Part shown: one piece after another, positions 12,477 through 64,000 of the stretch
How positions within the stretch are numbered: position 1 is the stretch's first letter
Layout: each line of letters starts with the position of its first letter
NCBI GenBank assembly: GCA_011800155.1
Contig: CM022373.1
Location: forward strand, 310,001 to 374,000
Direction: 5' to 3'
Length of the DNA stretch: 64,000 nucleotides
DNA from: Flammulina velutipes
Taxonomy: Eukaryota > Basidiomycota > Agaricomycetes > Agaricales > Physalacriaceae
Notes under the pieces: generated by a model
What the model saw: only the letters and a program-made list of their open reading frames with translations
The model's database searches: none
Told to the model about the DNA's origin: nothing
Made by a program: the position numbers and the translations under genes

Positions 12477-14278
12477 ATGAGCGATAACCCATTCCAACGT
12501 GGCTGCAAGTCAATGGACGCAGCCAGAGTCGAGATTCTGGTTCCTATCATCTCCAAGATCCTGGACAGAATCAACACGACATATCATGCACAGAAATGGC
12601 TAGGTGCTCACGGAGATATGGTACGTGAATCTGATATTCCAACAAGCCCATTCATATATTCCATCTCAGAGATGTAAACACTGTTCAGACAGAGGACTAG
12701 ATTGCGTGTCCCAGCGCTCTCGGGTTGCTTGCCGAAGATGCCTACACTCAAAGAAAAGCTATTCTTGCAGCCGACTCATCCTTGCAATCAAAGAGACAAT
12801 CCCCAAGTATCGCTCGGGCTATTTTTCGGATGTCTTGATCACTCGTGCATTGCGTGAGGCGGAATCCCGTCGGCGGAAGGTTCGCAGTCACAGTGTAGTC
12901 CGTTGAAGGTTTATACCATTGGGATGTGGCCCCATCTGATATTTGCTTTGGCAGGATACGGGATGTATATCGGACGTGTCGTCAGTGGCTGCATCCACCA
13001 CTATAGCCGAAGAAGACACCGAAGACGATTCATATCCAATTCCGTCCAAGTTTGAGGGTATCCTTCTTATCCCTTTGGATAGAATAAAGCTGAATACAAT
13101 TTATTTTGCAGTGTCATTCAATCTAGGCATTGACTCGACGATAGAAGACTATGCAAATGCGTACAACGGTGCGTTCACTTATTGAGTACCATATTATCGA
13201 CTCATCTCCCCAGTTGCCCAAAAGTCGTTGAGGAATGAAGAATGGCGAAGCCAAGGTTAGCGCAAGTGTCATACTATTGGCGATCTGAAATCAATGGTGT
13301 TAGATTTGATTTTTGTGCTGCGAGAGCACGAGGCCGAACTTCTAGGTACGGAGGTGTCGACATTCGTTGCAACTTCCTGACGTTCGCTTCTAGCTCAAAC
13401 TCGAAAATCTCGAGAGTTGGAGGCTGTGGTCCTTGATATGACGGACGAACGCAAGAGCTTGGTCGAGGATAACAACAATCTCTACGACGAATGCAAGAGG
13501 CTACGTAGGGAAAACCAAGATCTTGTAGAGAAGAACACACACTACCGACTCGAGCACCAAGGTAGCACTTTGACTACTCTCATCCCAATCACTCACAGGG
13601 GAATCCATAACAGCTCTGTCCGAGAACTTGGCTAGTAAGTGCTACTGCATCCAAGCGTGCATCTCATCAATATCTGCATATTAGTTGTCAAAGAGCTTAA
13701 TCAGTTGTATAAGCTGCAACTTGGACAAGGTGAACGATTTCTCAATATATCTCGAGTGGACGTTGATCAATTCTGACAGGACGTGCAAACGCACTCGTGC
13801 TGTCAAAGCCTCGGCGCAGTGATGGAGACGCAACGGTGTTAAAGGAGAAGCTTAGGTGTAAGTACACTGATCTTGGTTGGCTCGAATTTCTTAAAAGCGT
13901 ACCAGCCGCCGAATACACGATTGGCCAGCTAACTCGTGAGTATCTTTTCTTGATGATACCCACTGTATCTCATGTAAAAAACGGCAGGCATAAATGAACG
14001 TAAGTACGCCAATACATGTTCGATTATAATTGACTGTGAGGTCAGACTTTAGGCGGGAAGAGCAGTTGCGTCGCCGGCGCGTGTTCAATGATCTCGTGCA
14101 CCTCGACAGCCTCTACGGCAACCTTGACCGCAAGCTGAGAAACACGGAAGAGTCATTCATGGGTAAAGGTGACGCGCAGAGGCATTTGACTGATTTGGCC
14201 ACATGGGTTACATTGTTCACTATGAGTGAAGGGTTTAATTGTGAAGAATCCACCGAGCACCTGCGAATCTCTGCGTAG
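12477..14278 (+). CDS. Zn2Cys6-like zinc cluster protein with coiled coil, function unknown
   Basis: Start ATG gives MSDNPFQRGCKSMDAARVEI. After an intron at about 12619-12670 the frame reads CKHCSDRGLDC, then VSQRSRVACRRC and a last Cys after LHSKKSYS: spacing C-x2-C-x6-C-x8-C-x2-C-x8-C, consistent with a binuclear zinc cluster. Later exons encode an acidic stretch and a strongly heptad-like coiled coil (LVEDNNNLYDECKRLRRENQ near 13450-13520). The C-terminal exon (14045-14278) is charged and ends ESTEHLRISA. At least six introns are present and several middle junctions are unsure. Proteins with this cysteine pattern plus coiled coil are frequent in mushroom-forming fungi; a DNA-binding role is inferred only. 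Compare gene X at 56.6-61.5 kb, which has a similar cluster. Confidence 0.6.
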
Positions 14279-47626: not shown

Positions 47627-48058
47627 ATGGTTCGCAACATCTTGCTCGCGCTCTTGCCACTTTCTTGTTACGCCCAAGTCCAGCTATTGGGAGCTCCTTT
47701 CAGATCACCAGTCACGAACGCTCCGGGATTCAACTCTCATGTCATTTATTCCAACGTTACCGCGCCTCGTGGTATCTCTCTGGATTCGGAAGGCAACCTT
47801 CTGGTCGTAGAGCGCAATTTTGGCATCGCAACATTTTCTCTTACCGCAGACGGACTAGGTTGGGAGAGGACAGTGGTGGCTGCAAACACTGCCGTTACTC
47901 ATGGAATCCAGGTGTTTGAGGACAAGCTCTACTTCAGCACGGCCAGCCAAGTTTTGGTATACGAGTACAACGCCGCGACCAAGACTACTACAGGGGCTCC
48001 CACGGTTCTTGTCGATGGACTTGTTGCGAGCAGATTAGGCGCAGCGTATGAGACGTCG
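47627..48058 (+). pseudogene. Truncated secreted beta-propeller (sorbosone/glucose dehydrogenase-like) gene
   Basis: Start ATG at 47627 with signal peptide MVRNILLALLPLSCYAQV. Residues that follow (NAPGFNSHVIYSNVTAPRGI, LVVERNFGIATF, GIQVFEDKLYFSTASQVLVY) look like the first blades of a PQQ-sugar-dehydrogenase or NHL-type beta-propeller. Only about 143 residues are present: the frame ends in a TGA at 48059-48061, exactly where the LTR of a Copia element begins. No matching C-terminus occurs further on in the window. The gene is therefore broken at the retroelement; whether the element inserted into it or joined by rearrangement cannot be told without the other flank. Confidence 0.66.
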
Positions 48059-48227
48059 TGACTTCGAGTAGACGGTCAGAGTTAATATAATAGAGGCTCT
48101 AATGTAAATACATACCTTCGAGTAGACGGTCAGAGTTAAAGGTGTCTGACCGGACTCGAAGGCTCTATACGGTAATATTATATAATCTCATCACATGTCC
48201 GTGTTCTCTGCTCGTCGTCTCTTAACA
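48059..48227 (-). repeat. LTR of Copia element (169 bp), TG...CA ends
   Basis: The sequence begins TGACTTCG and ends CTTAACA on the plus strand. Read in the element's direction it starts TGTTAAGAG right after a purine-rich tract ending GAGGGGGAG (48228-48240 complement), the usual place of a Copia polypurine tract. It contains a 24-bp direct repeat with a 54-bp period (48062-48085 and 48116-48139). A second LTR was not seen. Confidence 0.68.
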
Positions 48228-50620
48228 CTCCCCCTCGACGAGCTAGGCGGTGTCCTATCGTAGACCTAAAAATTCCACCATCTTTTCCACCTTTTCCCGC
48301 GCAAGAGCCTTTGTCATAATGTCGGCCACCATGTCATCTGTCAGGATATGCACAATGTGAATCGTTCCTGCAGCGACCACCTCGCGCAGCCAATAGTATC
48401 GCAGATCAAGGTGTTTAACACGTCCGTGGTGATCTGGATTTTTGGCGACCGACATCGCTGATTGATTATCCATGTGTAGCGTCGACGATCCGGACGATCC
48501 ATACCCCAGCTCGTATAGCAGGTTTCTGAGCCATAGGATTTCCTGCCCTGCAGATACGGATGCGACATATTCAGCTTCAGTGGTGGAGAGTGTCACAAAT
48601 GGCTGTAGACGGCTCATCCAGCTCACCGCTCCTGTTCCCATCTTGACGACGAAACCAGAGGTTGACCGACCGTTATCAGGGTTTCTGCCATGGTCTGCAT
48701 CACTGAACGTGAGGAAGCGCTCCTGGGAGTCATTGTCGCAAGGGCAATAGGTGAGCTTATAGTCCAGTGTCCCCTTGAGGTAGCGAAGTAGACGCTTGAG
48801 CGCTAACCAATGCGTCCAGCCTGGATTCTTGGAGAATCGTGATAGAACGGCGACGGGGTATGCAATATCCGGACGGGTGGCGGTGGCAAGATAGGCTGTT
48901 GCTCCCAAGAGGTTTATATATGGTATGTCCTTCATCTTCTCTGCCTCTTCGCGCGACTGAGGTGACATCTCAGCGCTCAGCTTGACGTTTGGATCCATTG
49001 GCGTTGACACCGGATTACAGTCTTCCATGCTTGCCCGAGCAAGAACATCGAGGGTGTACTGGCGCTGGGATAGAGATATGGTCCTGTCCGCTCGATTTCG
49101 CTCGATCTCGACGCCTAGTAACCACTTTGTCGGCCCCAAATCCCGTAGCTTGAAGCGCTTCTCTAGCTCGGTGATGAATGATCTCGCCTCGCTCTCTGTC
49201 CTCGCTGCTATTGTCATGTCATCCACGAAGACGGGAACAATGACGCGAGTGCCTTTCTCGGATATGTAAACCCACACGCTATGCTCGCAGCGTACCCGTT
49301 TGTACCCCATATCGACCAGAGTGCCGTGGAGTGTAAGATGCCATTGGCGTCCAGCTTGCTTGAGGCCATAGAGTGCCTTCTTCAGCCGAAGTGCCCATGT
49401 CCGGTCTTTTGTCCGGAATCCCTCAGGCTCCTCCATATACACCTCTTCGTCAAGCTCGCCATTCAAGAAAGCTGACGATATGTCCACACTCCAAAGAATC
49501 AGGTCCTCGAGCGCTGCCAGCGCGAGTATAACACGGATAGTCGCCCATTTCGGAGTCGGTGAGAATGTTTCTGTGTAGTCGAAGCCTGGTCGCTGAGCAT
49601 AGCCTTTTGCCACTAGTCGAGCTTTGTAGCGTTCTGTGGAGCCGTCTGCATTCAGTTTGACGCGGAATACCCATCGGTTTCCGATGGCTCTTCGTCCTGG
49701 TGGGAGTTTGACCAGCTCAAACACTCCCATTTTTGCCATTGACTCGAGCTCATTGGTTGCCGCCTCGTACCACTTGTCTGCTTCATCGGAGGGGCGATTC
49801 ATTGCCTCGGAAAATGTCTTTGGTCCTTCGACGGTGGTTGACATGGCGTGTTCTGTGGTGCAGTCAAATGCGAATTCGAGTGCTTCGGCATGCGACAAGT
49901 AGCAGATTGCATCAGCATCAGTTGCCGATACTGTCTGCGCAAGATGTTCGTCATCTGGGATATCGAGTAACGATTCGACGGCTGCGGCGTGGTTTGCTGC
50001 ATGACTGTCTCCTTCTGCCGGTGGTTGCCAGTTTCCTTGATAATTCCATGGAACCTTTGTGCCCGTCTCTCGGTTTCGTGTTCTCATCCCACGGCCAGTG
50101 TTTGGTGGTGGTCTGATGAGACCGTCGCTGCGCATCTCTGGTTCGTTGCACGCTAGGACTTGTGGTGGCGGTTCCGGAAGTTGTTCTGGCTCGGGCGATG
50201 ATGGCAGGCTCAAAATTGAGGTGAGAGGAGATAGTGAAGGACTGCGAACATCTGGAAGGGTGGGAGAAGGTGCTCGCGGTGATGGTGGCGCTGGTGGGGG
50301 AGTATCGGGGCTGCTAGCCTTGTCGATAGTGTTTTCTCCCCCTCGACGAGGCAGCACATCTCCCCCTGAATGTAGCACATCAGGAGGTGCAGTGGATGGT
50401 GTTGTTGGCTCAGAGGGCTCGACGGGGGCATTGAGATCAGGGATAAGATCACCGAATGGATTTACGAGAACATTGTGGTTGCCAGGGAAGACTCGTTCAT
50501 CGAAGTAGACATGGCTGGATGTAACAGTTGTTTTGGTGGCAGGATCCCAAAAGGTCCAAGCCTTGGTGCCGGGCTTGTATCCGATGAAGATGCATTTGCG
50601 GTGATGTGCAGTGTAGAAGA
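48059..50620 (-). mobile_element. 5'-truncated Copia (Ty1) LTR retrotransposon
   Basis: Minus-strand element with the 3' LTR at 48059-48227 and the end of the pol gene. Homology to Copia starts at HHRKCIFIGYKP near 50620; the gag, protease and most of the integrase, and the other LTR, are missing. Beyond that point the DNA turns into a CA-rich stretch unrelated to Copia. The remaining pol frame has no stops, so truncation is recent. Confidence 0.8.
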
Positions 50621-50648
50621 ACGCCACAAAAACACACACAAAACACAC
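48255..50648 (-). CDS. Copia pol: integrase C-terminus, reverse transcriptase, RNase H (partial)
   Basis: A single uninterrupted frame of about 797 codons. The Copia integrase end (KAWTFWDPATKT, HVYFDERVFPG) is followed by a Pro-rich spacer and reverse transcriptase: KARLVAKGYAQRPGFDYTET, WSVDISSAFLNGEL, the catalytic FVDDMTIAA, and LGPTKWLLGVEI. RNase H shows TFSDADHGRNPDNGRSTSGF, LSTTEAEYVA and HLDLRYYWLREVV. All of these are hallmark Copia motifs. The first 10 or so codons (CFVCVFVAFFYT) are not Copia-like and belong to the truncation junction. Confidence 0.92.
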   Translation of the reverse strand: MCFVCVFVAFFYTAHHRKCIFIGYKPGTKAWTFWDPATKTTVTSSHVYFDERVFPGNHNVLVNPFGDLIPDLNAPVEPSEPTTPSTAPPDVLHSGGDVLPRRGGENTIDKASSPDTPPPAPPSPRAPSPTLPDVRSPSLSPLTSILSLPSSPEPEQLPEPPPQVLACNEPEMRSDGLIRPPPNTGRGMRTRNRETGTKVPWNYQGNWQPPAEGDSHAANHAAAVESLLDIPDDEHLAQTVSATDADAICYLSHAEALEFAFDCTTEHAMSTTVEGPKTFSEAMNRPSDEADKWYEAATNELESMAKMGVFELVKLPPGRRAIGNRWVFRVKLNADGSTERYKARLVAKGYAQRPGFDYTETFSPTPKWATIRVILALAALEDLILWSVDISSAFLNGELDEEVYMEEPEGFRTKDRTWALRLKKALYGLKQAGRQWHLTLHGTLVDMGYKRVRCEHSVWVYISEKGTRVIVPVFVDDMTIAARTESEARSFITELEKRFKLRDLGPTKWLLGVEIERNRADRTISLSQRQYTLDVLARASMEDCNPVSTPMDPNVKLSAEMSPQSREEAEKMKDIPYINLLGATAYLATATRPDIAYPVAVLSRFSKNPGWTHWLALKRLLRYLKGTLDYKLTYCPCDNDSQERFLTFSDADHGRNPDNGRSTSGFVVKMGTGAVSWMSRLQPFVTLSTTEAEYVASVSAGQEILWLRNLLYELGYGSSGSSTLHMDNQSAMSVAKNPDHHGRVKHLDLRYYWLREVVAAGTIHIVHILTDDMVADIMTKALAREKVEKMVEFLGLR

Positions 50649-52549
50649 ACTAACAAGTCAATGGTGCGATGCGGAAAAGTCCGATGTTTATAGCGGGATT
50701 TCATGTTATAATAGCAATCGTTCGTTTTGTAATAGGTGGTATGGGACGGGTTCTTGTTCTTTGTATCTTTGTTTTATGGGACTGTTTCTCTCTATCTTCT
50801 GCTCAAAATGCTTATACTAGTTCGACGGGGTAACAGGGATCTGATCTTAAACTGAGTTCTAGTTTGCCACTAAGTCACAGGCCGATTGGGATGTGTGTAA
50901 AGAGACCTAATGAGGCTCTTCCCAGGCCAACAACCTTCAACCACACTAGGGAGCGGGAGCTCTGGTATCTATCTGTATAATCAGGACTCTCCAACAACTA
51001 GTCGGGGCCTGAATAGATAGCCTAGCACAGTCTGAACCACACTTGTATGGGACTTGGGACTCCAACCAGAGTTGGTAGGTTCTTTAGATGGAATTTCCCG
51101 CGGAAACTCGGATCGTTTGAATCGCAAAGGACTTGGCTTCAACTTCTTTAATATGGGAAGTAGCTCCAATGAGTTCTTAGATCTTTGGTTCTGTTTCTTA
51201 TTTCCACCTATCTAAACAGTGGTTCTTTTTCTAACTAAATCTTAGAGTCTATTCCTCCAGTATATACGGCTTGTGGGCTGCGGATACGGGGGGCGTAAGC
51301 TACTGTAAATAGTACAAACGAGCTAGCTTTATAGTGTTTTCTATATACGTCTGAATAAGGATATAATACCGAGTCCGCTGGTTCGGGGGAATATTCCGAT
51401 AGGATGTACGGAATATCCCTCTAATGGTGCCCTTGGCATTGCTGCCTATTCGTTCTGGCTTCTATTTGCTTTGAATCCAACCAATGGTGGCGCCGTAACT
51501 GAGTTTTCAGCGGCGCCAGGTTGTTCCTTGTGCTTGGAAGCTCCACTATTATTAGCGGTCGAGTCCTGTCTAGCAGGAACTCTTAGCCTTTGTTCGTATT
51601 CTTATTTCATACTACGAGTCCGAGTAGTACCGACTAGGTTTGGTATACTGGACGCGCAAGTATGTTCTTAGTATCATGTTCGGACTTTTCCGGTAGTACT
51701 CCGGAAAAGCTATCGTTGTATCTTTACGAGTTGTCGATAGTACTCGTATTGTAGGTCCTTGTAACGATTTACTTGTGGATCCCGAGAATCGATCAGGAAC
51801 AGTCCACCGGAGTAAGTCGATCGGTGATCGAGCAGTATCTTTTGAAAGCCTAAAAGGTTACCCTGACTCCTGAGTCTCCTATGTAATATCCCGACGTCTG
51901 AGTAGTATGAACATTTGGTTCGCTAGTCCAGCCAGCGTTTAACTGCTTGCTGGCGTTGCGTCTCTTTATGTAGAGTTTCCTTGTGTAAGGGTAACTCGCC
52001 GAATTCCGTTAAGTATTTCGGAGTTTCGCGCGTTCAAGTGTATTTGATCACGATGTCTCCATCGGGGTACTTTTGATGATGATATTCAAGATCGTCATGT
52101 GTGGTTTGGCTATACCTACACGCCCTTCAGCGTGTGGCGCTTTTCCGACGAATCTTAGGAGTTTTCCGGTCGTACCACGGAAACTCCTTACACTGTATCG
52201 TATACGCGTTTCGGTCTGTAACTAGAGGTTCTTGTACTCATAGGTTCGTTCTATCACTAAGAATGCTTCTTAGAATCGCAAATTTTGGGGTCTTTCGTAC
52301 TTGCATTAATACAATGCGCATCATCTCCCATAGACTTATTTGATGGTGTCCGCACCATCCTGGTTCCCCTATCGTTGGATCCCTCAATATTCTTCCTGGA
52401 CTCGGCTCTTGGAAAAGGCCAATAGGTAGGAGGACAATTCCGCTTATTTCAACGGAATTCTCCCGGCTTTGCACGTTCCATTGCCAATATTTCTTCACTA
52501 TAAAAGCAGGCTGAAAACTGTGGCGCTCCCCGTTTTATCCTTCGTTACT
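50649..52549. other. Non-coding leader of the 50.7-64 kb island, with dispersed palindromes
   Basis: About 1.9 kb without a credible gene. From 51094 on it carries several TTCCG...CGGAA palindromes (51094-51106, 51391-51416, 51685-51709, 52002-52025, 52158-52187, 52436-52459), a GGCGCC palindrome (51488-51518) and the dyad GATGGTG-TCCG-CACCATC at 52342-52359. A TATAAAA box (52499-52505) precedes gene Z. The left border of the island is somewhere between about 50.62 and 51.09 kb; I found no clear LTR. Confidence 0.6.
52499..52505 (+). promoter_or_regulatory. TATA box of gene Z
   Basis: TATAAAA 45-51 bp upstream of the gene Z ATG. Confidence 0.5.
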
Positions 52550-54179
52550 ATGCCTCCCAAGATCCCTCAATGGCACTCCATTGGTTCTTCAATCTCTGCG
52601 GAAGCCCCCATTGCTACGCTGGAGCTCGTCCAGTATCGCCTTGCTACTGCCCCGTTGATCAACGACTTCTTGGTTAATTACTCGCTCCCGGATTCGACCA
52701 ACTCCCTTATTGTCGACGCCATCGAACAGCTCACTGCCCCAGTGATGGCCTTGTTGCGTATGGTGTCTGCCAATCCGACGCCACGGGATATTCCGATTGT
52801 CGTTGTGGACAAGTTCTTTAGCAAGTTGCTGGTATGTCTTTCCGCTTTCTTTCTATGTCTCATGCTAAGATCTTTATTTATCTTCTAGCTCATCAATCAA
52901 TCTCTGAAGGGAACCACCGCCGCGGAGGCTTCCTTCGAGATTTTCTCCTTCTTCTGGAATCTGCGCAACGTCCTTGGGGTCTATCTTTTGGAGTTAGGCG
53001 TTAGCCCAACTCATCACCGTATCAACCTTGCGGATATGTTTACTCCAGTTCTTAATACTGTGGGTCGAGGCAAGGCTTATATCGCACCGCCTTATCCCGA
53101 GAGCCACCCCCTTCATGCTGCTTCGCGTGTAGTTCCTAAGGTCAAGGCGCCAGCTCCAGCTCCTGAGCCTACACCTGCACCCAAGCTTACTGCTAAAGCC
53201 ATGCGGGCTGCCGCGAAAAAGGTATGGACTTTTCCGCTTATTCTTCGGTCTTTCTAACTTGTATCACTTTCTTAGGCTGGTAAGACTGTTAAGTCTGCCG
53301 CCGTTATCGACGATGCCCTCGAGGCCGTTGGCGATACTACCAACGCCACTCTTACTGAGGATATCGGTATGTTCTTTCGTGACCGGCACTTTCCGCTTTA
53401 CTAAACGGACTGTCTGGTTTCTTCAGAAATGGACGATGGTGGGTCTGAATCTGATCTTTCTGACGATGAAGATGTGAGCTTAGTTGCTTACTTCTAGGCG
53501 TCTCAAGATTGACTCAACCCCTGCAGGACTTGACCATTATTGATGGAGATGGAGTGCGCCGCAAGGACTTCCCCCCTTCTCCGGTTCGTACTTGTCTTCT
53601 TATTCTAAGGCTTGAACTAAAGACATTTCTCCTTTATTCATAGCCTGCTGAAGTCGAAGGCCCCCGTGTGGTAACTTATCTTCCCTACTCGATGATCCCA
53701 GGTATGCTGATAACTTCTCGCGCATACCAGAAGGCCATGGAGGTTATAGGAAGTACGGTTACTTTCGTGGAACCTGCTCCTTTGCTCACTAAACGCAAAG
53801 CTACGGAAGATGGATCTCCTCGTCCTCTTAAGAGCCTTAAGGTTGACTCCGTTCGTATTGACAACACCTTCGTCGAACAATTCATTGGAGGTGCGTTTAG
53901 TTCTTCTTATCTTAATCTTGTACTTATCACATTTTTCCGTGTTTCTTAGCGGGCGCTACCGCTCAGAGTTACGGAAGCTCTGTTGCTCGAGTTATCAAAC
54001 AAGTCAACCGACTCCTCTCCGCCGACGAGTTGACTGAACTCGGACCTGGTCTGGTTTCGACTGAGGTGGCGCATCGCAATGAGTTGATTAGACTCTTGAA
54101 TCGTATTCACGGCGACGTCCAGACGTTCAACCGTACCAAGGACTTGTATATCGCTACTGTCAAGTCTATGCTCGAATAG
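52550..54179 (+). CDS. Island gene Z, unknown function
   Basis: Not recognised. Seven exons (52550-52831, 52889-53221, 53276-53366, 53427-53473, 53527-53583, 53644-53890, 53950-54179) join to 428 codons with all phases matching. The N-terminal half is helical and hydrophobic-patterned (LELVQYRLATAPLINDFLVN, FSFFWNLRNVLGVYLLELG), then Ala/Pro-rich (KAPAPAPEPTPAPKLTAKAM), then acidic (MDDGGSESDLSDDED), with a basic nuclear-signal-like TKRKATEDGSPRPLKSLK and a helical C-terminus ending DLYIATVKSMLE. No enzyme motif. Preceded by a TATA box. Several introns contain TTTCCG...CGG palindromes. Because all splice phases fit, it is a real spliced gene and not debris. A structural or DNA-associated role would suit the composition, but this is a guess. 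Confidence 0.66.
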
Positions 54180-54621
54180 ATATTTCCCTGTTACAACTAG
54201 GTAGTTGCCCATCCCTTCTTTCCGGGTGATACTACTGTTTACCTATTGTGTTTCCGGCGCTCTTTATCTTTATCTTTATCTTTCTGATACTGTAGCCATT
54301 GCTTATTGACTTCAAATATAACTGTCCCCTAAACTTCGTGTGATTTGAACTGCAAGCTAGACCCCGAAAACACTTGTGCGCCACTTCCGTGATTCTTAGC
54401 GGAATTTCGCATGAAGTCTTCGCCGGTCTCCTTTCTTGTTCTTAGGGGTTTACAATTTTCGTTTTCCGTATTGGCAATCTTCTATAGCCTATACGTTCGT
54501 TATTTTCTTCGCCTTGACGAATACCCGACCCATTAGCCAGTCGATCATGCACCTCCTATTAGATTTGTACATCGTTTATAAGACTGAACTTTTGTAATGT
54601 CTCGGTCTTCGTCTGCCTCAG
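54180..54621. other. Spacer between genes Z and Y
   Basis: About 440 bp, tandem Z and Y on the same strand. Has the palindrome at 54385-54404 (TTCCG-10-CGGAA) and a TTTATC-type short repeat near 54266-54284. An upstream ATG at 54598 is out of frame with gene Y. Confidence 0.5.
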
Positions 54622-55789
54622 ATGCCTTCTCCTATCGCTTTGATTCCTCTATGGGCCAACTTTAAAATCGCTATGATTCCGGGTTTGGACAAGCGATTTT
54701 CCGAGGAGGCCTTGGACTTTTTGCAGGCTGAGACTGGTCTCGCCGTTGCTATATCGTTATATCGCACTGCTCAAGGCTTTCCTATCGTGGCCACGCCACT
54801 CAATAGCTTGGATCTTACCGCACGGTATACCGATGTGGCTGCGGACTTGCACTTAGGTCCTGCTCGTCAGATAGACGCTCCTACATTGAGGTTCACCCTA
54901 GGCGTAATGGTACGTCTCGGATTTTTCCTTGCATTTCGCAGGTCTAACTGTCTTGATAGCAACACGCTTCTAGTTTGTGGCATTGCGAACATCCCGACTT
55001 TCGTACAGGGCAAGCCTACAACTTAGCTTCGTTGTATATCGTCTGTCTTCGATTGGTGTCCAACTTCTTTCATGGACGCACGGGAAACTGTACCCTCGAT
55101 GGTCTTTCCTTCGAAGGATGGCTTTCCAAAGTATATCGCCAACCCCATATGCACTTTACAGAGTTGTACTTGGATGCTAGCGCCGATTTCATCGTGAGTT
55201 CTTTAACCTATACACCTTTTCCGTACTAAATCTCGGGATTTTCCATAGACCAGCGTAATGTTGGGCTATCATAGGGGAGCGCCTGACTCTTTGGGTGGGA
55301 TCTTTGCCCATCCTGAGGTTTTGGATGCTATCCCTGTCCCTCTATCTCGTTTGGATGCCAGCGACGTTCAATTGGTCGCTTGGTGGCCTCGTTATCTTTC
55401 CGCTAACAACATTCAGCCCGAGTTTGATACTCGTCCTATCATGTATGAACGGGTCGTTACCAACGGTTATTCGCCTTTACACGATTTTCCAGCTGGGTTG
55501 GTTGACGCTAGTGACCTCAGACTTGGTCCCCACGCCGAACGCTTCACTGAGTTCGTACCAGAGCCCCATTGTGTTGCTCAACGGCGATCTAGCTCAACGC
55601 CTGAACTTGTTCCAATCAGTTCTCCAGTACCAGTGGTCAGATCTTTCGTAAGTCTTTCTGTTCGACGTCTAGTGTATTATTCTAACACCTTTCTTCTGAT
55701 AGACCCACTTCAATACGCTAGGACAGACTATGTGTACCCACTGTCCCACTAGTCATCCTGCCGTCGAATGTACTCCTCCGACCCAGTAG
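54622..55789 (+). CDS. Island gene Y, unknown function, CCHC-like cysteine knuckle at C-terminus
   Basis: Not recognised. Exons 54622-54909, 54960-55193, 55249-55647 and 55703-55789 are each a whole number of codons and join to 335 aa. N-terminus MPSPIALIPLWANFKIAMIP, then a helical domain (FSEEALDFLQAETGLAVAIS, FTELYLDASADFITSVMLGY). The last exon reads THFNTLGQTMCTHCPTSHPA then VEC: a C-x2-C-x3-H-x4-C set, one residue short of the retroviral Gag zinc knuckle C-x2-C-x4-H-x4-C. A helical domain followed by a knuckle would fit a Gag-like or nucleic-acid-binding protein, but the gene is antisense to the Gypsy pol, contains introns, and the spacing is off, so this stays a hypothesis. Confidence 0.6.
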
Positions 55790-56556
55790 TCGGATTTTCC
55801 GTTAAAAGTCTATCATTTTGGTGTTAGACACTTAGTCTATATCGTTTGTCGGTTATCCTATGTCGTAGCGCTATACCTTCAATTTAGACCCTTTCCTTGT
55901 TACCAAGTTCGTTCTGTGGTTCAAATTGATGGTGGCGCGGGAATTCCCGTATCTTCATCGGAGTTGAGTATTCTTCATACTATGGCATTCATACTCGTAG
56001 CCTCAGGTATATATGGCTTAAGACCTTCGTTGGCTAGTTCTTCTATGTAACTTGAGACGTACTAGCCTTGGCGTAGTCTCTAGTTATAACCAATGTTCAC
56101 GCCCTTGATAAGTCCGGAGATCGTCATGATTTAATGGCGTCTCCCATTGACTTATTAGATGCTATCATACTGGTATCTTTGTTAGTCTACTAAGCTTTCA
56201 TCCTAGAAGAGTCTGTTTTTCCCACTTGAAAACCCGGAGAATCCCTTGTCTCAATGACTTGGTATCTCTTTGTTGGTTTTCAAGCTTTTCTTAATCTTAG
56301 TTCACACCATTTTACCAGTTTTTTAAGCGTGCTCGCTTTTTCATAGGTATGGTCTATCGTATGTATCTAGATATATTTTTGGCACAGAGGCCCGCTAAGT
56401 CCCATGTTCTACTCGTATCGTATTGTACAAGTCCAACGAAGAAGAAAGAGTCCGAGGACAATCCCGACCAAAACCCGGCAAAAGAAACCAAGACTAAAGA
56501 CTACAAATGTTAGAGGGAGCTAGGCTTCGACCTCCTTCATTTGCAAACTCCTTCCT
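55790..56556. other. Spacer between convergent genes Y and X
   Basis: About 770 bp without a gene. Contains the palindrome at 55942-55965 and a block at 56139-56180 (CTCCCATTGACTTATTAGAT) related to 52325-52370 upstream of gene Z. Confidence 0.5.
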
Positions 56557-57364
56557 TTAACGACAACGACTTGGTCCAGCAACGGCATTTTCCGTTGCCA
56601 ACCTATAGTACGTTAGGACATTGGGATCCCCCCAATGCCTAAGTAAGTCGTTCACAGCATCCGTAAGTCTGCCGTTTTGTTCGACCAGCTGGTCGACGTC
56701 GTTTCGGAGACCTTGTATTGTCTCGAGCAAGGCTTGAGGTCGACGTTTGACCAAGTCAGATTCTGGATCCAACTTCTCGCACTTCAACTTCATGACTTGG
56801 CAGCGTACGCAGGACTTGGTTGTCGGGGTCGCGTATTGGCATTCCTTGTTCTTCTTCAGACACTCCTTGCAAAGCACTTGGGAGTACTTCCAGAGTTCAT
56901 TTTCAGGAATGGGCCCCTTTGCCTTTCGCTTGCCCTTGCTTTTGTCTGACTTCCCAACTACAGCTCCCTTTACTGTCTTCCGCTTCTTCCTAGCCGGTCC
57001 TTCACTTTCCGACCCATCCTCGGAATCGCCCGTTGGCTCATCGGAGGGTTGGAAGTCGTCGTTGTCGGGCTCGAAGTCGTCGTCGTTCGGCTCGAAGTCG
57101 TCCTCCTGCTGTTCTTTGTCTTCATCCTCGCCATCATCACCACTGCTACCATCTGCATCGCCATCTTCTACTTCGCGAGTCCTCTTCTTTCCCTTGGCTT
57201 TAGCGGGCGAGTCCGGTTTTGACATCGGAGTCGACTTGACGCTAGGTTTAGATTTGGCTGCTGGAGCCACCTTCTTACCCACAGCTTTCGTCGTTGTCTT
57301 CTTCGTCGTCTTGGCCTTCTTCTTGGGAGAAGGTGCCTCTTCATCCACGACCTCCTGTCCGGAG
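56557..57364 (-). pseudogene. Island gene X, 3' part: acidic, Zn2Cys6-type cluster, coiled coil (split by hAT element)
   Basis: Second half of gene X, cut from its first half by the fold-back element. It reads on from QEVVDEEAPSPKKKAKTTKK: a Lys-rich stretch, a long acidic region of Asp/Glu blocks (EDDFEPNDDDFEPDNDDF), a basic KKRKTVKG, then CKECLKKNKEC, QYATPTTKSCVRC and QVMKLKC, spaced C-x2-C-x6-C-x9-C-x2-C-x6-C, exactly the fungal Zn2Cys6 rule. A heptad region follows (LLETIQGLRNDVDQLVEQN), like the dimerisation coil behind such clusters, ending VAGPSRCR. The cluster sits near the C-terminus instead of the usual N-terminus. Compare the gene at 12477-14278. A DNA-binding role is inferred from the spacing only. 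Confidence 0.72.
57357..57364. repeat. 8-bp target site duplication, left copy (GTCCGGAG)
   Basis: Identical to 60163-60170 and directly adjacent to the terminal inverted repeats; fits the nTnnnnAn preference of hAT elements. Confidence 0.85.
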
Positions 57365-57589
57365 CACCCTATGCTATACAGATAACTAGTTAAGAGGCCT
57401 TAGTGGCGGGGCCAAATAACTAGTTGCTGGCCGATACTATAGAGCTATATTTTGGCTGGTAGAAATGGCTGGCTGGCGGGCTGGGGCGGGCTGGGATGGG
57501 GTGGGATGGGTCCCAAATATGGATAGGAATTGATGGGAGCATGTAGGGATTGATGGACAGGGGGAGGGGGAGCAGGGGATGGGGAAATG

Positions 57590-57800
57590 TGGCCACACAT
57601 AAATCCGGACCTAGGGATTGATGGGTACTGATGTCATTGATTGACCAGGGGGATGGGGGATGGGGATAGCAATTGTGGCACCAGGAAAATCCGGACCTAG
57701 GGTTTGATGGGGACAGGGGATGGGGGATGGGGGCAGTGGAAATGTGGCCACAGGAAAATCCGGACCTAGGGATTGATGGGAACTGATGGGATTGATGGGG
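57590..57800. repeat. Subterminal repeats, left arm of hAT-like element
   Basis: The unit GGACCTAGGGATTGATGGG, preceded by TGTGGCCAC or TGTGGCACC and an AAATCC box, appears near 57607, 57695 and 57761 at intervals of about 65-90 bp, embedded in G-rich GGGGATGGGG tracts. Subterminal repeats of this sort are the usual transposase-binding sites in hAT elements. Confidence 0.65.
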
Positions 57801-59699
57801 GAGGGATGGGGATGGGGGCAGGGGGATTGGGGGCAGGGAACAATTGTGGCACCAGGATATATACTGGGCTATTGCCAGGGTATGAGGAGGGTATAGGAGG
57901 GATGATTGTAGGTTGAAAAATAAAATTCTTTCTAACTATCAGAAACATGAATGGGGATGTGGCAGCTACTGAAACCAATAATAAAACGATGTGTGGCGCA
58001 TTTTTAATCGAGGAGCACATACCTCGGATCAACCTGGGGTTGTTCTAGATGTCTTCCTATTGAAAAATGAATGTGTGCAGCACAAAGAACCATGTAAAAA
58101 CACGAAGATTTGGCTGAGAAACAAGCAAAACATTATTGAAAATCCATCAAAAAGCACCAAAAAGGGAGCAGCACTTTGCCCTCGCTTGGGGGTGACCTGG
58201 AACCACTTGTAGGTCGTCCAGACACCTTTGGGGCATTGTATATGTCACTCAGTTAGGTCCTCAGGTCAACAGAACCCTTGGATATGATCAAAATGCCAAA
58301 ACCCGGACCACACAGCTTTGGGCCACACTATCAACTTGCACTGACCTGGGGACACCTTATATTCGAAGATATCTGTATATAATGCTCTAATCATGAGTTA
58401 GATGAAGTCTGGAGTGTGAAAAATGCGGTCAAAACCTTGGATATACCCTAAATAATGTCCCCCAAGAAAGCACACATACCATCAACTTCCCCTGACCTCT
58501 GGGTTGTTCCAATGTGTTCTATTATCATTATAGATGATGTATTGGCATCCCAGAGGTGTCCCCAATGTGTCAAAATGCGAATATTCATGATACTAGGTGA
58601 ACCCTTATTCACCCTTCCTCCTCAAGTACACCCATTGGTTTGCATATCTACATCTTTAGGACTGCTCTAATAGTCATTTGACATTATATAGATGATATCT
58701 TGGGGCCCAGGTCATAGGTAGACCTCGAAGATACACCTTTGGTACATGGTGAGGATATGATCTTTGTACTAATTCTCAAATGTCCATGCTCTATATTGAA
58801 GGGTGTTCAACCTGGGACATATTCTGGGAAGCTAAAAACACATTGTATGATGTTAAAATCAATAGTCCATCACTCAGATGTGTGATAGTTGGGGTAGTTC
58901 TTGGTGTAGAAGGAGGGGATATAAATTATTGTACCATTTCTATTCGCATTTTGACAAACTGGGGACACCTCTGGGATGCCAATACATCATCTATAATGAT
59001 AATAGAACACATTGGAACGACCCAGAGGTCAGGGGAAGTTGATGGTATCTATGCTTTCTTGGGGGACATTATTTGGGGTATATCCCAGGTTTTGACCGCA
59101 TTTTTCACACTCCAGACTTCATCTAACTCATGATTAAAGCATTATATACATATATCTTCGAATATAAGGTGTCCCCAGGTCAGGGCAAGTTGATAGTGTG
59201 GCCCAAAGCTATGTGGTCCGGGTTTTTGGCATTTTGATCATATCCAAGGGTTCTGTTGACCTGAGGACCTAACTGAGTGACATATACAATGCCCCAAAGG
59301 TGTCTGGACGACCTACAAGTGGTTCCAGGTCACCCCCAAGCGAGGGCAAAGTGCTGCTCCCTTTTTGGTGCTTTTTGATGGATTTTCAATAATGTTTTGC
59401 TTGTTTCTCAGCCAAATCTTCGTGTTTTTACATGGTTCTTTGTGCTGCACACATTCATTTTTCAATAGGAAGACATCTAGAACAACCCCAGGTCGATCCG
59501 AGGTATGTGCTCCTCGATTAAAAATGCGCCACACATCGTTTTATTATTGGTTTCAGTAGCTGCCACATCCCCATTCATGTTTCTGATAGTTAGAAAGAAT
59601 TTTATTTTTCAACCTACAATCATCCCTCCTATACCCTCCTCATACCCTGGCAATAGCCCAGTATATATCCTGGTGCCACAATTGTTCCCTGCCCCCAAT

Positions 59700-59935
59700 C
59701 CCCCTGCCCCCATCCCCCATCCCCTCCCCCATCAATCCCATCAGTTCCCATCAATCCCTAGGTCCGGATTTTCCTGTGGCCACATTTCCCCTGCCCCCAT
59801 CCCCCATCCCCTGTCCCCATCAAACCCTAGGTCCGGATTTTCCTGGTGCCACAATTGCTATCCCCATCCCCCATCCCCCTGGTCAATCAATGACATCAGT
59901 ACCCATCAATCCCTAGGTCCGGATTTATGTGTGGC
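59700..59935. repeat. Subterminal repeats, right arm (inverted copy)
   Basis: Mirror image of the left-arm set: CCCTAGGTCCGGAT units near 59755, 59825 and 59910 within C-rich CCCCATCCCC tracts. Confidence 0.65.
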
Positions 59936-60162
59936 CACATTTCCCCATCCCCTGCTCCCCCTCCCCCTGTCCATCAATCCCTACATGCTCCCATCAATTC
60001 CTATCCATATTTGGGACCCATCCCGCCCCATCCCAGCCCGCCCCAGCCCGCCAGCCAGCCATTTCTACCAGCCAAAATATAGCTCTATAGCATCGGCCAG
60101 CAACTAGTTATTTGGCCCCGCCACTAAGGCCTCTTAACTAGTTATCTGTATAGCATAGGGTG

Positions 60163-60170
60163 GTCCGGAG
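60163..60170. repeat. 8-bp target site duplication, right copy (GTCCGGAG)
   Basis: Exact repeat of 57357-57364, next to the terminal GCATAGGGTG of the element. Confidence 0.85.
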
Positions 60171-61494
60171 TCATCTTCCATTCTTGCTTGTTTGGCGCGA
60201 AATCTCACCGCTTGTATGAAGGCCACCTCCGGATCTTCTACCGGAGCTGCCGCGGGAGCTGCCATTGTCGATAACTTCGACAGCTTTCGGTTTCCCAAGC
60301 CCTTGATTTCTTCTGGCGAAGGCATCGCAATGGTCGGAAGGGGCATCTGCTGGGAACTTTGGGTTGGCTTAGCCATTGGAACCTTAGCAGGCTTTACCAT
60401 TGCCATGGGAGGCATCTGCATCGGAGCTCGAACTGGTCGAGGTACCACTACCCTGGGACTTGGAGCCTTTGGCACGGCTTTCGTCTTTCGGGGAGGGGGA
60501 CGCGGAATCTCTGAACTTGGAGACCTTTCCGGGGTTGGCGCGGACTTTTCCTTGCGCTTCCCGGAATCCTCTTCCTCGCTCTGTCGTAGATCGTATTAGC
60601 TGTAATGTAGCTTTCACCCCTTTTTGAAGCTACTTACATCTTGCTCTTTGGAGAGCGCTTCCTCTCCTTCTTGATCTTCCTGATCCTAACAAATTCCGTT
60701 AACTTTAGCGGAATTTACTATAATCTGGTATCGTACCTTGTCGACTCGCTTGTCTTCTTCAGGACCCTCGGATCCTGAGTCCTCTTCAGCTTCGCTGGTC
60801 CTTGCTACGGCCATAGCCTTGACGGCCTCTTCGTCGTCCGAGCTCTCGCCGCTTGACGAGTCCTATAACAAGTCCGTTGAATACATCGGAATCTGGATCT
60901 TAGCAGTTCTTACCTTGACGTTGCCTTTGGACTTTGCTTCCTGGGCTTTGTCTTGGTCTTGACCGACATCTTCATCGTCGGTCTTGTCGTTTTCTTCGCC
61001 AACCTCTTCGTCATTGGCATCTTCACCTTTACCTTCAGGCGTCTAAGGTTTTTCCATTGAGTTTCCCGGAATTTACCCGTTCGACTCAAGGAAACTTACC
61101 TTGACGGTCTCTTCAGTCTTCTTCTCGACCTTTCCTTCGCCGCCACTTTCATCTTCACTTGTCTAATTCGATTCCGTTAAATTTTCGGAGTCTGCCGACG
61201 TGATCTTTATCTTACCGTTGCATCCGGCAACTCTTCGTATAACTGCCAAGCCCTTGTAAGGACTTGATCCAGCCATACATTATTCTTCGCCGCCGAGTGC
61301 TTGAGTTCGCCGGCCGCCTTCTCGAACTGAGTCCAGAAGATTCGGTAATCTTCCGGAACGTGGCAGACAGGCAAAGTCCGCCAATTGCCGGGAATAAAGC
61401 GAAGTCGTCTGATCGCATTTTTAGAGAAGTGGCGGCGCTCAAATGCGAGCGCCTTGGGTCGGTCTTTCAATTCAAAGAAGCTAGTTGTAGACAT
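60163..61494 (-). pseudogene. Island gene X, 5' part (split by hAT element)
   Basis: First half of gene X. Start ATG at 61494, exon 1 to 61216: MSTTSFFELKDRPKALAFER then NAIRRLRFIPGNWRTLPVC, a compact, possibly helical domain with DYRIFWTQFEKAAGELK. Five introns follow (about 61163-61215, 61043-61099, 60867-60916, 60689-60738, 60583-60640); three of them carry clear TTCCG...CGG palindromes. The exons in between are strongly acidic (SEDESGGEG, EEVGEENDKTDDEDVGQD), then Pro-rich (PSPRVVVPRPVRAPMQMPPM), reaching QARMEDDS at the insertion point. Joining DDSG to QEVVDEEAP across one copy of the duplication keeps the frame. As it stands the frame runs into the element and stops at 60134. Confidence 0.7.
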
Positions 61495-61967
61495 TGTACT
61501 TGAAATTGACGTTGTCGCGTTGATCTGTATCGCGTTTTGGCAGAGTCGCGTCGCTGCGATGGTGGTTGAAGGATGAGTTCGTTTTTCTCAAATTTTCTCT
61601 TTAAGTTCACCATCACGGACCCGGTCCGGTGATCCTGTCGATCAACTCCGAAATGGAAAGGGCCATTCCGTTTCTGATAGGCCTAGCTCTTCGGAATCTT
61701 ATCTTAGATTGTGGGGAATTTCCCCAACCCCGCATCGGAATGGTACCTTTTTTTCTACAGGAAAGATATTCATCGTTTGTACGGTTCGTATGCAGTATAT
61801 CTTTAACGTTACTGCTATACTATCTTTGTTCTTAATGATAATACATCTTGAACGTATCGTTTGTATGTACCAAGTAAAATCGAAAATTCCTGGTAAATTC
61901 CGTTCGTTATTCGGGAATGCCTCTATATCCCCCACAAGCTTTATATGATGGTATCCCTACCATCAGC
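61495..61967. other. Spacer between gene X and Gypsy pol
   Basis: About 470 bp, no gene. It holds the promoter of gene X, the palindrome at 61897-61918, GGGGAATTTCCCC near 61723-61735 and the dyad GATGGTA-TCCC-TACCATC at 61947-61964, which resembles the one upstream of gene Z. Confidence 0.5.
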
Positions 61968-64000
61968 TCATGCTTTCTTGTTTAATTCGTCCATGACTTT
62001 GCCTACAGAGCCACGTATCATGTGTAGTCTCTTGAAGAACAAGTCTCCTAAGAAGCTAGGGTCTTTCCGCGAATAAAACGGAATAACCCGAAACTGCGCA
62101 ATCTTGTCTTTGAGTAAGGACCCGTCTAGTTCACATAGGACATAGTTTCCCCCAGTCGTACGCGATACTACGGCGTATGGACCCATGAATCGTTCTTTGA
62201 ACTTGTGATTGAGTTCCTCTTCAATCCTAGTATTTCGGACTAATACCAGTTCACCAGTTTTGAACTTGTGAGATGGCATTCTGTTCTTATGATCTTCCAT
62301 GAACTTAGCCGCTGCTCGAATCTTTGCGTCTGTGACTCTTTGCTTCATACGTTTCACATCTTCTTTGTGTTTAATGAGCTGTTGTGCACGAAACGCTATC
62401 AAGTCTGAATGCGACACTAAGGAATCCGGAATATCCACCAACCAAGTCACTTCGTTTATATCTAACGGTAGGATGGGTTCACATCCTGTTACCGCGTAAA
62501 ACGGTGACTGTCCAAGTGTTCGTTTAACAGTGATTCGTTCTGCCCATAGTACTTCGTGTAGGTATGCCGGCCATTCTTCGGGATTTCCCCTACAGACTTT
62601 GAATAAGGATTGTCTTATGTCCCAATGTCCGCGTTCAACCTTCCCATTAGCCTGTTTATTATACGGCGTAATGAGGATACCCTTGACTCCATACTTGGCT
62701 TCAATATGAACCATCGCTTTCTTAATAGCAGGACCATTATCTGTTATGATCTGCTTTATACATCCCCAACGACATAGGATATCTTCGAAGAGCCAGTCTC
62801 CTAGAGTATCCGCGTTCTCGTTGATCAAGGCCCTTGCTTCCGGCCAACCACTAAGTCCACATCGAGCCACTGTGACAGCATTATAGCCGTCATACTTTTT
62901 GATCTTCGGATTTTTCCCGCCTGATTTCGGCATTCGGAATGTGTCCACAAAAGCAGTCTCAAATATTCCTGGTGTTGGTGTAATCGTAGGTTCCTTATGG
63001 ATGATAATCTTCTGTCGTTTTTGGCAAAGAATACAAGTCTTAACAAACCAGTTCATGTCATCTTCCATGCCTGGCCACCAGAACCTCTTGCCAACTAATT
63101 GTCGAACTGAGTATTGTCCTTTATGGCCATGTTTATCATGTACTATAGTCACTACTGGCAACCGTTTCCCTACTAAGAGGACTCGACGGTGCTTGTTTTC
63201 TTTGTGCTTCTTGTATAACTTCCCACCCGCAATGAAGAAATCCTTAGATGCCCAGTCCTTTAATGTTGATAGTTGTCTGGTGGACAATTCTTCGGTTTCA
63301 TATTCACTGTTGCGTAGGCAAGCTTCAACGTGTGGCAAGAGAGTTTCCCATAGAGCTTCTCTACTTGACCTTTCTAAGTCCGGAAACTCATCAATTGCTA
63401 CCCATTTCTCAAGGTCTTCTACCGCCATTGCTGCCAGTTGAGTAGCGCGGTATTCTTCTGAGGTCTGTTCGAAGTCGTTTACTGGGTTTTCCGGTAAACT
63501 TACGGGAATTTCCCGTACTTCTTGCAGGTAACCTGTCTTAGTATCTATAGCATCTTTGAAGTCCTCGAAGGGGAGAGGCTTGTCCTCGTCCGCTAAGTTG
63601 TTAGGTTCTTCATACTCAAAGCTAGGCAGCTCGTCTTCTTCTTCATCTCCTGGAGGACGGGGTATGATAATGTCTTCAGGTGCAGGCACCCTTCGACTCA
63701 GTCCGTCCGGACCATGGACTTTTCCAGGTACATGTACCAAAGTGAAGTGAAACATGAGTATCTCCTCTGCCCATCTTTGTAGGTTCCCGTTGGTGAGGGA
63801 GTCGATGTTCGATAGCATTCCCTTAATGTACTTTGCATCGACTTCCACCTTCAGCTTTCGACAACCTAATAGATAGTACTTGCACGCCATTAATGCGCGG
63901 TGAAGTCCGAACAACTCCCTCTTTGATTGTGAGTATCTAGCCTCACGCTCATCCAAAGTGATCGATAGGAACTTCGCATAGTAACGTTTCTTAGGGTCTT
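61968..64000 (-). CDS. Gypsy (Ty3) pol: RNase H and integrase, partial at right edge
   Basis: One uninterrupted minus-strand frame; the 5' end with reverse transcriptase is beyond the window, and the frame continues in phase (KRYYAKFLSITLDEREARYS) to the edge. RNase H-end motifs: SQSKRELFGLHRALMACKYY and HVPGKVHGPDGLSRR. The integrase has an HHCC zinc finger (HDKHGHKGQYSVRQL, then CILCQKRQK), a DDE core with VDTFR, TDNGPA and an NKQANGKVERGH segment containing the final Glu, and a C-terminal SH3/chromodomain-like part (HKFKTGELVLVRNTRIEEEL, FMGPYAVVSRT). Typical of Agaricomycete Ty3 elements. It is open without stops, so possibly active in recent time. One dispersed palindrome (62065-62083) lies inside the coding region. 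Confidence 0.93.
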   Translation of the reverse strand, partial: DPKKRYYAKFLSITLDEREARYSQSKRELFGLHRALMACKYYLLGCRKLKVEVDAKYIKGMLSNIDSLTNGNLQRWAEEILMFHFTLVHVPGKVHGPDGLSRRVPAPEDIIIPRPPGDEEEDELPSFEYEEPNNLADEDKPLPFEDFKDAIDTKTGYLQEVREIPVSLPENPVNDFEQTSEEYRATQLAAMAVEDLEKWVAIDEFPDLERSSREALWETLLPHVEACLRNSEYETEELSTRQLSTLKDWASKDFFIAGGKLYKKHKENKHRRVLLVGKRLPVVTIVHDKHGHKGQYSVRQLVGKRFWWPGMEDDMNWFVKTCILCQKRQKIIIHKEPTITPTPGIFETAFVDTFRMPKSGGKNPKIKKYDGYNAVTVARCGLSGWPEARALINENADTLGDWLFEDILCRWGCIKQIITDNGPAIKKAMVHIEAKYGVKGILITPYNKQANGKVERGHWDIRQSLFKVCRGNPEEWPAYLHEVLWAERITVKRTLGQSPFYAVTGCEPILPLDINEVTWLVDIPDSLVSHSDLIAFRAQQLIKHKEDVKRMKQRVTDAKIRAAAKFMEDHKNRMPSHKFKTGELVLVRNTRIEEELNHKFKERFMGPYAVVSRTTGGNYVLCELDGSLLKDKIAQFRVIPFYSRKDPSFLGDLFFKRLHMIRGSVGKVMDELNKKA

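Follow-up and report, generated by a model that had tools for sequence, protein, structure and literature searches.

Why does the palindrome TTCCG-N9/10-CGGAA recur across some 13 kb (51094-63516) of a 64,000-nucleotide stretch of Flammulina velutipes DNA (contig CM022373.1, positions 310,001 to 374,000, here C6:310001-374000 and called the window, whose own coordinates are used unless a contig or locus is named)? The initial annotation had placed at least thirteen copies in this island, in introns, between genes and within a Gypsy pol gene. Analysing one genome (38.1 Mb in 23 contigs), we found that the palindromes are real and exceed chance, that they belong to a long terminal repeat (LTR) retrotransposon, and that they probably serve, at many points along the element, as binding sites of a Zn2Cys6 (Gal4-type) homodimer that the element itself encodes, most likely with an anti-silencing role.

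The strict motif occurs eight times in the window, with all starts within 51394-62065 and no copy elsewhere in the window, compared to a mean of 0.03 (maximum 1) when the island minus a nested element (10.6 kb) was shuffled 200 times with dinucleotides preserved. The count of thirteen or more thus did not hold for the literal motif, but the relaxed form TCCG-N9-11-CGGA has 16 of its 19 window matches inside the island. The core is an everted triplet pair, CCG-N9/10-CGG, whose triplets are near-invariant while loop sequences vary from site to site. Twenty-nine cores lie in the island (shuffled mean 3.5, maximum 9) versus 15 in window 1-50601 (shuffled mean 19.6). Spacers of 9 and 10 nucleotides are about equally frequent among these 29 cores (15 and 14), and not mostly 10 as had been proposed. 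Genome-wide, TTCCG-N9-CGGAA is found at 206 places and TTCCG-N10-CGGAA at 142, versus 28 and 57 for the respective reversed-pattern controls; the 30 spacings from N11 to N40 together give 1073 places, or about 36 per spacing (reversed control, 1200). Similarly, the CCG..CGG spacing spectrum from 0 to 30 in 15.7 kb of element peaks at N9 (23) and N10 (17), with 0-8 pairs at each other spacing, versus 2-15 per spacing in the first 50 kb of the window (N9, 6; N10, 9). These shuffles and spectra ruled out a composition artefact.

The island makes up the left two thirds of a single LTR element of about 20 kb (C6:360602-380776, sense strand minus) that starts at window position 50602 and runs beyond the window end. 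The introns, intergenic stretches and separate Gypsy pol of the initial annotation are all parts of this element, and a reading as several separate genes was ruled out. Its two LTRs, of 1722 bases each, show two differences and are bordered by GCGG at both outer sides. RNase H precedes integrase in pol (PF17917, residues 6-81, before PF17921, residues 279-330, both above the Pfam cut-off), and the element is a Ty3/gypsy-type retrotransposon. A gag-like frame gave a sub-threshold zf-CCHC match (18.7 bits vs a cut-off of 20.8). The window copy has its pol in pieces, with a frame of 704 amino acids (aa) versus up to 1330 aa in other copies, and in the frames tried from this locus (L006) no reverse transcriptase model matched at E 0.01, with only a sub-threshold RT_RNaseH_2 match. 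In the element's sense, a zinc-cluster accessory gene lies downstream of pol and an antisense multi-exon gene near the 3' LTR; seven of eight frames tried from the latter had no Pfam match and one had a sub-threshold match. A nested element (57364-60163) interrupts the zinc-cluster frame and contains no CCG..CGG pair at any spacing from 0 to 30, in agreement with the earlier observation that it carries no copies. The frame is uninterrupted, at 410 aa, in a copy lacking the insert (L013:2817-4046, minus strand), and 13 of the 18 zinc-cluster matches of this family (family 1) lie in frames of 397-410 aa. Since the motif belongs to a mobile element, it was spread by transposition.

A pol search returned 87 matches comprising family 1, a group mostly 77-86% identical, and gypsies at 36-41% identity; copy counts are lower bounds, with 40 of 125 candidates scored. 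From the middle group we defined a sister family (family 2, pol 83-84% identical to that of family 1), known from one full copy (C8:664032-681289, LTRs 99.6% identical, CCGG at both outer sides) and three 10-kb stretches. The full copy holds no TTCCG-N8-11-CGGAA; it holds 65 CCG-N9-CGG cores with both LTRs counted (shuffled, 4.1) and five at N10, and the three stretches, not trimmed to the element, hold 32, 35 and 23 N9 cores. The two families prefer different flanks. In family 1, TT adjoins CCG, with A at -3 and -5 and GG at -8/-7, whereas family 2 prefers, inside the core, C or A, then T or C, then A after CCG, and more weakly C outside; the form CCCGCT-N5-AGCGGG occurs 96 times genome-wide, compared to once for the reversed pattern. 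Thus it is not spacing alone that is kept, as had been suggested, but near-invariant triplets with family-specific flanks. When one of its two LTRs is counted, perfect cores in family 2 number 59, whereas all 18 one-mismatch types are few (largest 9, background 4.5), indicating that its core is close to all-or-none; some one-mismatch types are raised in family 1 (12 vs 2.0 and 13 vs 5.9). The family-1 element (15.7 kb) is also rich in CGG-N6-CCG (20, against 8 CGG-N7-CCG), and as 14 of the 20 CGG-N6-CCG pairs share a triplet with a core site, family-1 sites often reach three or more triplets.

Two other gypsies (families 3 and 4) served as controls and were flat: one, at 36% identity and lying inside a family-1 copy, has four CCG-N9/10-CGG in its 11.3 kb (shuffled, 9.1), and 10 kb around the pol of the other, at 41% identity, not trimmed to the element, also has four, like its other spacings. 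A family-2 zinc-cluster query gave 47 matches (E up to 0.01), almost all, as judged by eye, a few kb from a family-1/2 pol or antisense-gene match and none at family-3 or family-4 places, a search in which more distant relatives could be missed. Motif and zinc-cluster gene hence co-occur in two families, and neither was found in the two control gypsies. Between the two families, the zinc-cluster segments are 39% identical.

The sites are distributed over all parts of the element, at 3.0-4.5 per kb in family 2 and 1.5-3.9 per kb in family 1, and are least dense in pol in both; median gaps are 215 and 316 bp, respectively. Whole cores outlasted lone CCG/CGG triplets of the same query in all eight directed family-2 comparisons, for instance from C8 to C12 (26 of 27 sites kept vs 82 of 101 triplets), C12 to C1 (27/28 vs 90/121), C8 to C1 (26/32 vs 101/150) and C8 to C9 (12/19 vs 59/101). 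The same held in 11 of 12 family-1 comparisons, the exception being a single aligned site that was lost versus two of two triplets kept; all these comparisons use related copies and are not independent tests. In four comparisons chiefly over 60163-60900, cores were 96-100% identical and loops 76-89%. Positions, by contrast, have turned over between the families: in alignable parts, five of the 12 family-1 sites coincide within 3 nucleotides with one of the 21 family-2 sites. Within an aligned piece of pol, none of five family-2 sites is a family-1 site, although one (AERITV) encodes the same amino acids, and of three family-1 sites there the two that are fully aligned are not family-2 sites. 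Conservation of cores together with turnover of positions argues for selection on DNA sites. The original proposal, which named selection or mobility as what spread a binding or structural motif, was thus on the right track as to the mobile motif and the selection on DNA sites, with the remainder amended as above.

The accessory protein has the pattern C-x2-C-x6-C-x(8-9)-C-x2-C-x6-C in all nine aligned copies from both families, followed by a coiled coil, for which a helix is predicted at residues 62-107 (for the most part with a predicted local distance difference test, pLDDT, of about 70-92), the position of a dimerisation helix after the cluster. A profile of the nine copies matched PDB chains of PPR1 (E 0.0022) and PUT3 (0.023) best, followed by LEU3 (0.41) and GAL4 (1.1). 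Purifying selection is indicated by a ratio of nonsynonymous to synonymous divergence (dN/dS) of 0.12-0.16 in six of seven comparisons, dS being saturated in the seventh. Zinc-gene dS reaches 0.4-2.0 although, towards the LTR, almost every adjacent window of 250 bases shows 94-100% identity; the diverged block spans the zinc gene and stops before or near the end of pol. We read this divergence inside near-identical copies as an exchange of zinc-gene cassettes that probably took place among element copies. A protein database yielded unnamed relatives only, one for the zinc region of family 2, four for that of family 1 and two for an antisense exon, and a scan of viral contigs for relatives of the zinc protein or pol confirmed none.

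Zn2Cys6 proteins bind pairs of CGG triplets, everted ones included, as homodimers, as stated in PMC5559640. We favor a model in which each zinc cluster would read one CGG and an outward-pointing pair 9-10 bp apart would form the site, the spacer placing about one helical turn between equivalent bases. The family-specific flanks would add selectivity and confine the dimer to kin. Dozens of such putative sites lie over the LTRs, accessory genes, pol and gag, and since they cover the whole element, the dimer would be expected to occupy the full length of each copy in its family and few other places. By analogy with the VANC proteins of Arabidopsis VANDAL elements, its purpose would most likely be to shield these copies from silencing by host chromatin or DNA methylation. 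More broadly, and with rather less than even confidence, we envisage that a retrotransposon lineage evolved self-recognition from a fungal zinc-cluster module, with sites kept throughout LTRs and coding sequence and the gene passing between copies as a cassette that diverges. The sister families would have parted in flank specificity, each protein then marking and shielding only its kin.

Several observations weigh against this model. Pfam Zn_clus (PF00172) stays below its cut-off (best 18.8 bits vs 21), the zinc cluster itself is modelled with low confidence (pLDDT 45-55), and two families are the whole basis for linking the flank motif to the zinc protein. Family-2 zinc domains are only about 60% identical to one another yet accompany the same flank motif. 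One zinc-gene cassette of family 2 (2c, L027:4900-8400) has two CCG-N9-CGG in 3.5 kb, compared to 11 in 2.5 kb of cassette 2a, and is nearly site-free, unlike the rest of its own copy. The observed/expected (o/e) CpG ratio is 1.11 and 1.06 in families 3 and 4, which lack sites, versus 0.76-1.04 in families 1 and 2, where CpG transitions are two to four times as frequent as other transitions; on these grounds, composition neither supports nor excludes protection from methylation. Finally, the targets of VANC, an anti-silencing protein of Arabidopsis VANDAL transposons, are tandem repeats in non-coding DNA according to the reports cited below, whereas the sites here are dispersed and include coding DNA.

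Other explanations have to be weighed against these points. The same protein and sites could serve a different role, in which the dimer would help to compact, import or guide the element by binding either its double-stranded complementary DNA (cDNA) or the copies already resident (nucleoid-like or targeting), an explanation that we consider unlikely but the most serious of the rivals. Sites spanning the entire element would suit it, as would the spacing of family-1 sites, which is more even than random (coefficient of variation, CV, 0.60 vs 0.97; 0 of 5000 simulations as even), but no such evenness is seen in family 2 (CV 0.95, P 0.44). Some CG-reading step at integration is suggested by the target duplications: in each of the eight readable insertions, the four bases adjoining the LTRs carry CG in the middle (GCGG, ACGC, CCGT, CCGG, GCGT, ACGC, CCGG and CCGG), CG making up 6.2% of dinucleotides in window 1-45000, and integration thus seems to prefer CpG. 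CG-centred flanks are present on both sides in six of the eight, with two pairings at C5:582-631 kb presumed; the edge C5:612593 was left out as it adjoins internal element sequence. No tie was found, however, between the protein and cDNA or integrase. A host zinc-cluster factor that reads the sites and activates the element or marks it for silencing is less probable still. Zn2Cys6 factors are numerous in fungi and their sites would look identical, but the sites run through coding regions and not the LTRs alone, two related families have different flanks, and sites occur in the two families with the zinc gene and not in the two other gypsies; as a silencing mark, moreover, the element would have no reason to retain them.

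That the palindromes act instead as RNA hairpins in a genomic or antisense transcript we regard as very improbable. Single sites can fold, and some of the ten folded (z-scores -0.1 to -4.0) beat shuffles, as expected of palindromes; family-1 half-site matches in the flanks slightly exceed those in shuffled halves (190 vs 171, strongest at position -3, P 0.002). In family 2, by contrast, the matches number 198 vs 187 shuffled, loop-proximal positions are mostly unpaired, and core variants with one change, those of G-U type among them, occur at close to background level. No consistent surplus of G-U pairs was seen, and left and right halves are much alike in composition. The sites are two-fold symmetric with mostly independent half-sites, which speaks for sites in DNA rather than hairpins in RNA. 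The hairpin reading is thus not favored by covariation between half-sites, by the numbers of G-U pairs or by how the ten sites fold. Chance, base composition or internal duplication, lastly, has a negligible likelihood. Within a family, common descent explains why copies have sites in common, and the copies are not independent; this adds no weight to it, whereas the shuffle counts contradict it, loops differ among sites, and the sister family has the same core mostly elsewhere.

Coordinates of the features described (window positions unless a contig or locus is named)
Feature	Position	Strand	Remark
3' LTR	50602..52323	-	partner 5' LTR at C6:379055-380776, outside window
Antisense multi-exon gene beside 3' LTR	52430..55752	+	exon-sized frames 36-57% identical to sister family
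C-terminal part of Cys6 zinc-cluster and coiled-coil protein	56557..57363	-	frame interrupted by nested element
Nested element, long inverted repeats	57364..60163	.	hAT is the initial annotation's label only; outside the site system
N-terminal part of zinc-cluster protein frame	60164..60595	-	far side of nested element
pol frame	61968..63998	-	RNase H and integrase zinc-binding domains; extends past window end
Diverged zinc-gene stretches, both families	L025:7500-10000, L027:4900-8400, L028:2500-5500; window 56300-57363 and 60163-61200		
LTR edges examined	C6:360602/380776, C5:582111/630755, C5:595160/626260, C3:221089, C4:657149/674539, C1:2877903, C5:2525704/2554574, C8:664032/681289		
Core CCG-N10-CGG	50681..50696		in LTR
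Strict site TTCCG-N10-CGGAA	51394..51413		in LTR
Strict site N9	51688..51706		in LTR
Core N10	52006..52021		in LTR
Strict site N9	52164..52182		in LTR
Strict site N10	52438..52457		
Core N9	53234..53248		
Core N10	53393..53408		
Core N10	53937..53952		
Core N10	53959..53974		
Strict site N10	54385..54404		
Core N9	54830..54844		
Core N10	55221..55236		
Core N10	55778..55793		
Core N9	55947..55961		
Core N9	56464..56478		
Strict site N9	57007..57025		within zinc-cluster frame
Core N9	57030..57044		
Core N10	57213..57228		
Core N10	60229..60244		
Core N9	60241..60255		overlaps 60229..60244 core
Core N9	60529..60543		
Strict site N10	60694..60713		
Core N10	60874..60889		
Core N9	61174..61188		
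Core N9	61900..61914		
Strict site N9	62065..62083		within pol
Core N9	62567..62581		within pol
Core N9	63491..63505		within pol

Several features of the surroundings were noted in passing. The nested element is almost wholly inverted repeat, with a CpG o/e of 0.26 versus about 1.0 around it (0.26-0.27 in two other copies). A Copia-like pol frame (RVT_2, window 48255-50657) lies directly left of the LTR element, and 209 bp of window 48019-48227 recur to its right at C6:382972-383180 (L006 ~8972-9180); the LTR element may have landed within a Copia element or close to one. At C5:582111-630755 (L010-L014), at least five family-1 LTRs are clustered in nested or recombined copies of both orientations. 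A Cys6-like pattern is also present in a translated frame outside the element (window 12673-12768, plus strand).

Among known systems, the closest likeness is to VANC of the VANDAL transposons, for which anti-silencing, binding and demethylation are shown (PMC5735166 and PMC10398659). There, too, an element-encoded protein is paired with a short motif repeated within its own element, motif and protein differing between related families. VANDALs, however, are DNA transposons, whereas the present element is an LTR retroelement with a predicted zinc-cluster-type protein. Tandem repeats in the island, as detected with Tandem Repeats Finder (TRF), are confined to 57052-57102 and the nested element, the sites themselves being dispersed, also in pol. 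The protein resembles Zn2Cys6 factors such as PPR1, PUT3, LEU3 and GAL4 in its six ordered cysteines, the coiled coil after the cluster and sites made of CGG pairs, but it is retroelement-encoded, falls below the Pfam cut-off and is associated with everted CGGs at N9/N10. The PPR1 site is CGG-N6-CCG, and the spacer of LEU3 is shorter. LEU3 is a structural precedent for everted CGGs, judging by a title in the reference list of PMC5559640. Fungal mobile elements with a TET/JBP gene are likewise thought to counter silencing by DNA methylation; their protein is an enzyme rather than a DNA reader, and the source paper reports no such gene in a retrotransposon. Like the giant LTR retrotransposons Ogre and Burro (PMC6431247), the element is large and has extra open reading frames (ORFs), ORF capture downstream of pol being possible; the accessible part of that paper mentions neither a zinc-cluster gene nor dispersed dyads. 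By titles and abstract openings, we found no retrotransposon-encoded zinc-cluster protein with dispersed self-sites among the open-access papers listed, nor did we meet everted CGG pairs 9-10 bp apart in a search that was not exhaustive for that geometry.

If the favored model is true, sequence-specific self-recognition as known from plant VANDALs would have arisen again, this time through a zinc-cluster-type protein of a fungal retrotransposon. The model would account for the ability of an element to reach every one of its copies while sparing host genes, and it would provide an example of protein-binding sites under selection within retroelement coding sequence. The two sister families would then provide material for studying how zinc-cluster specificity changes.

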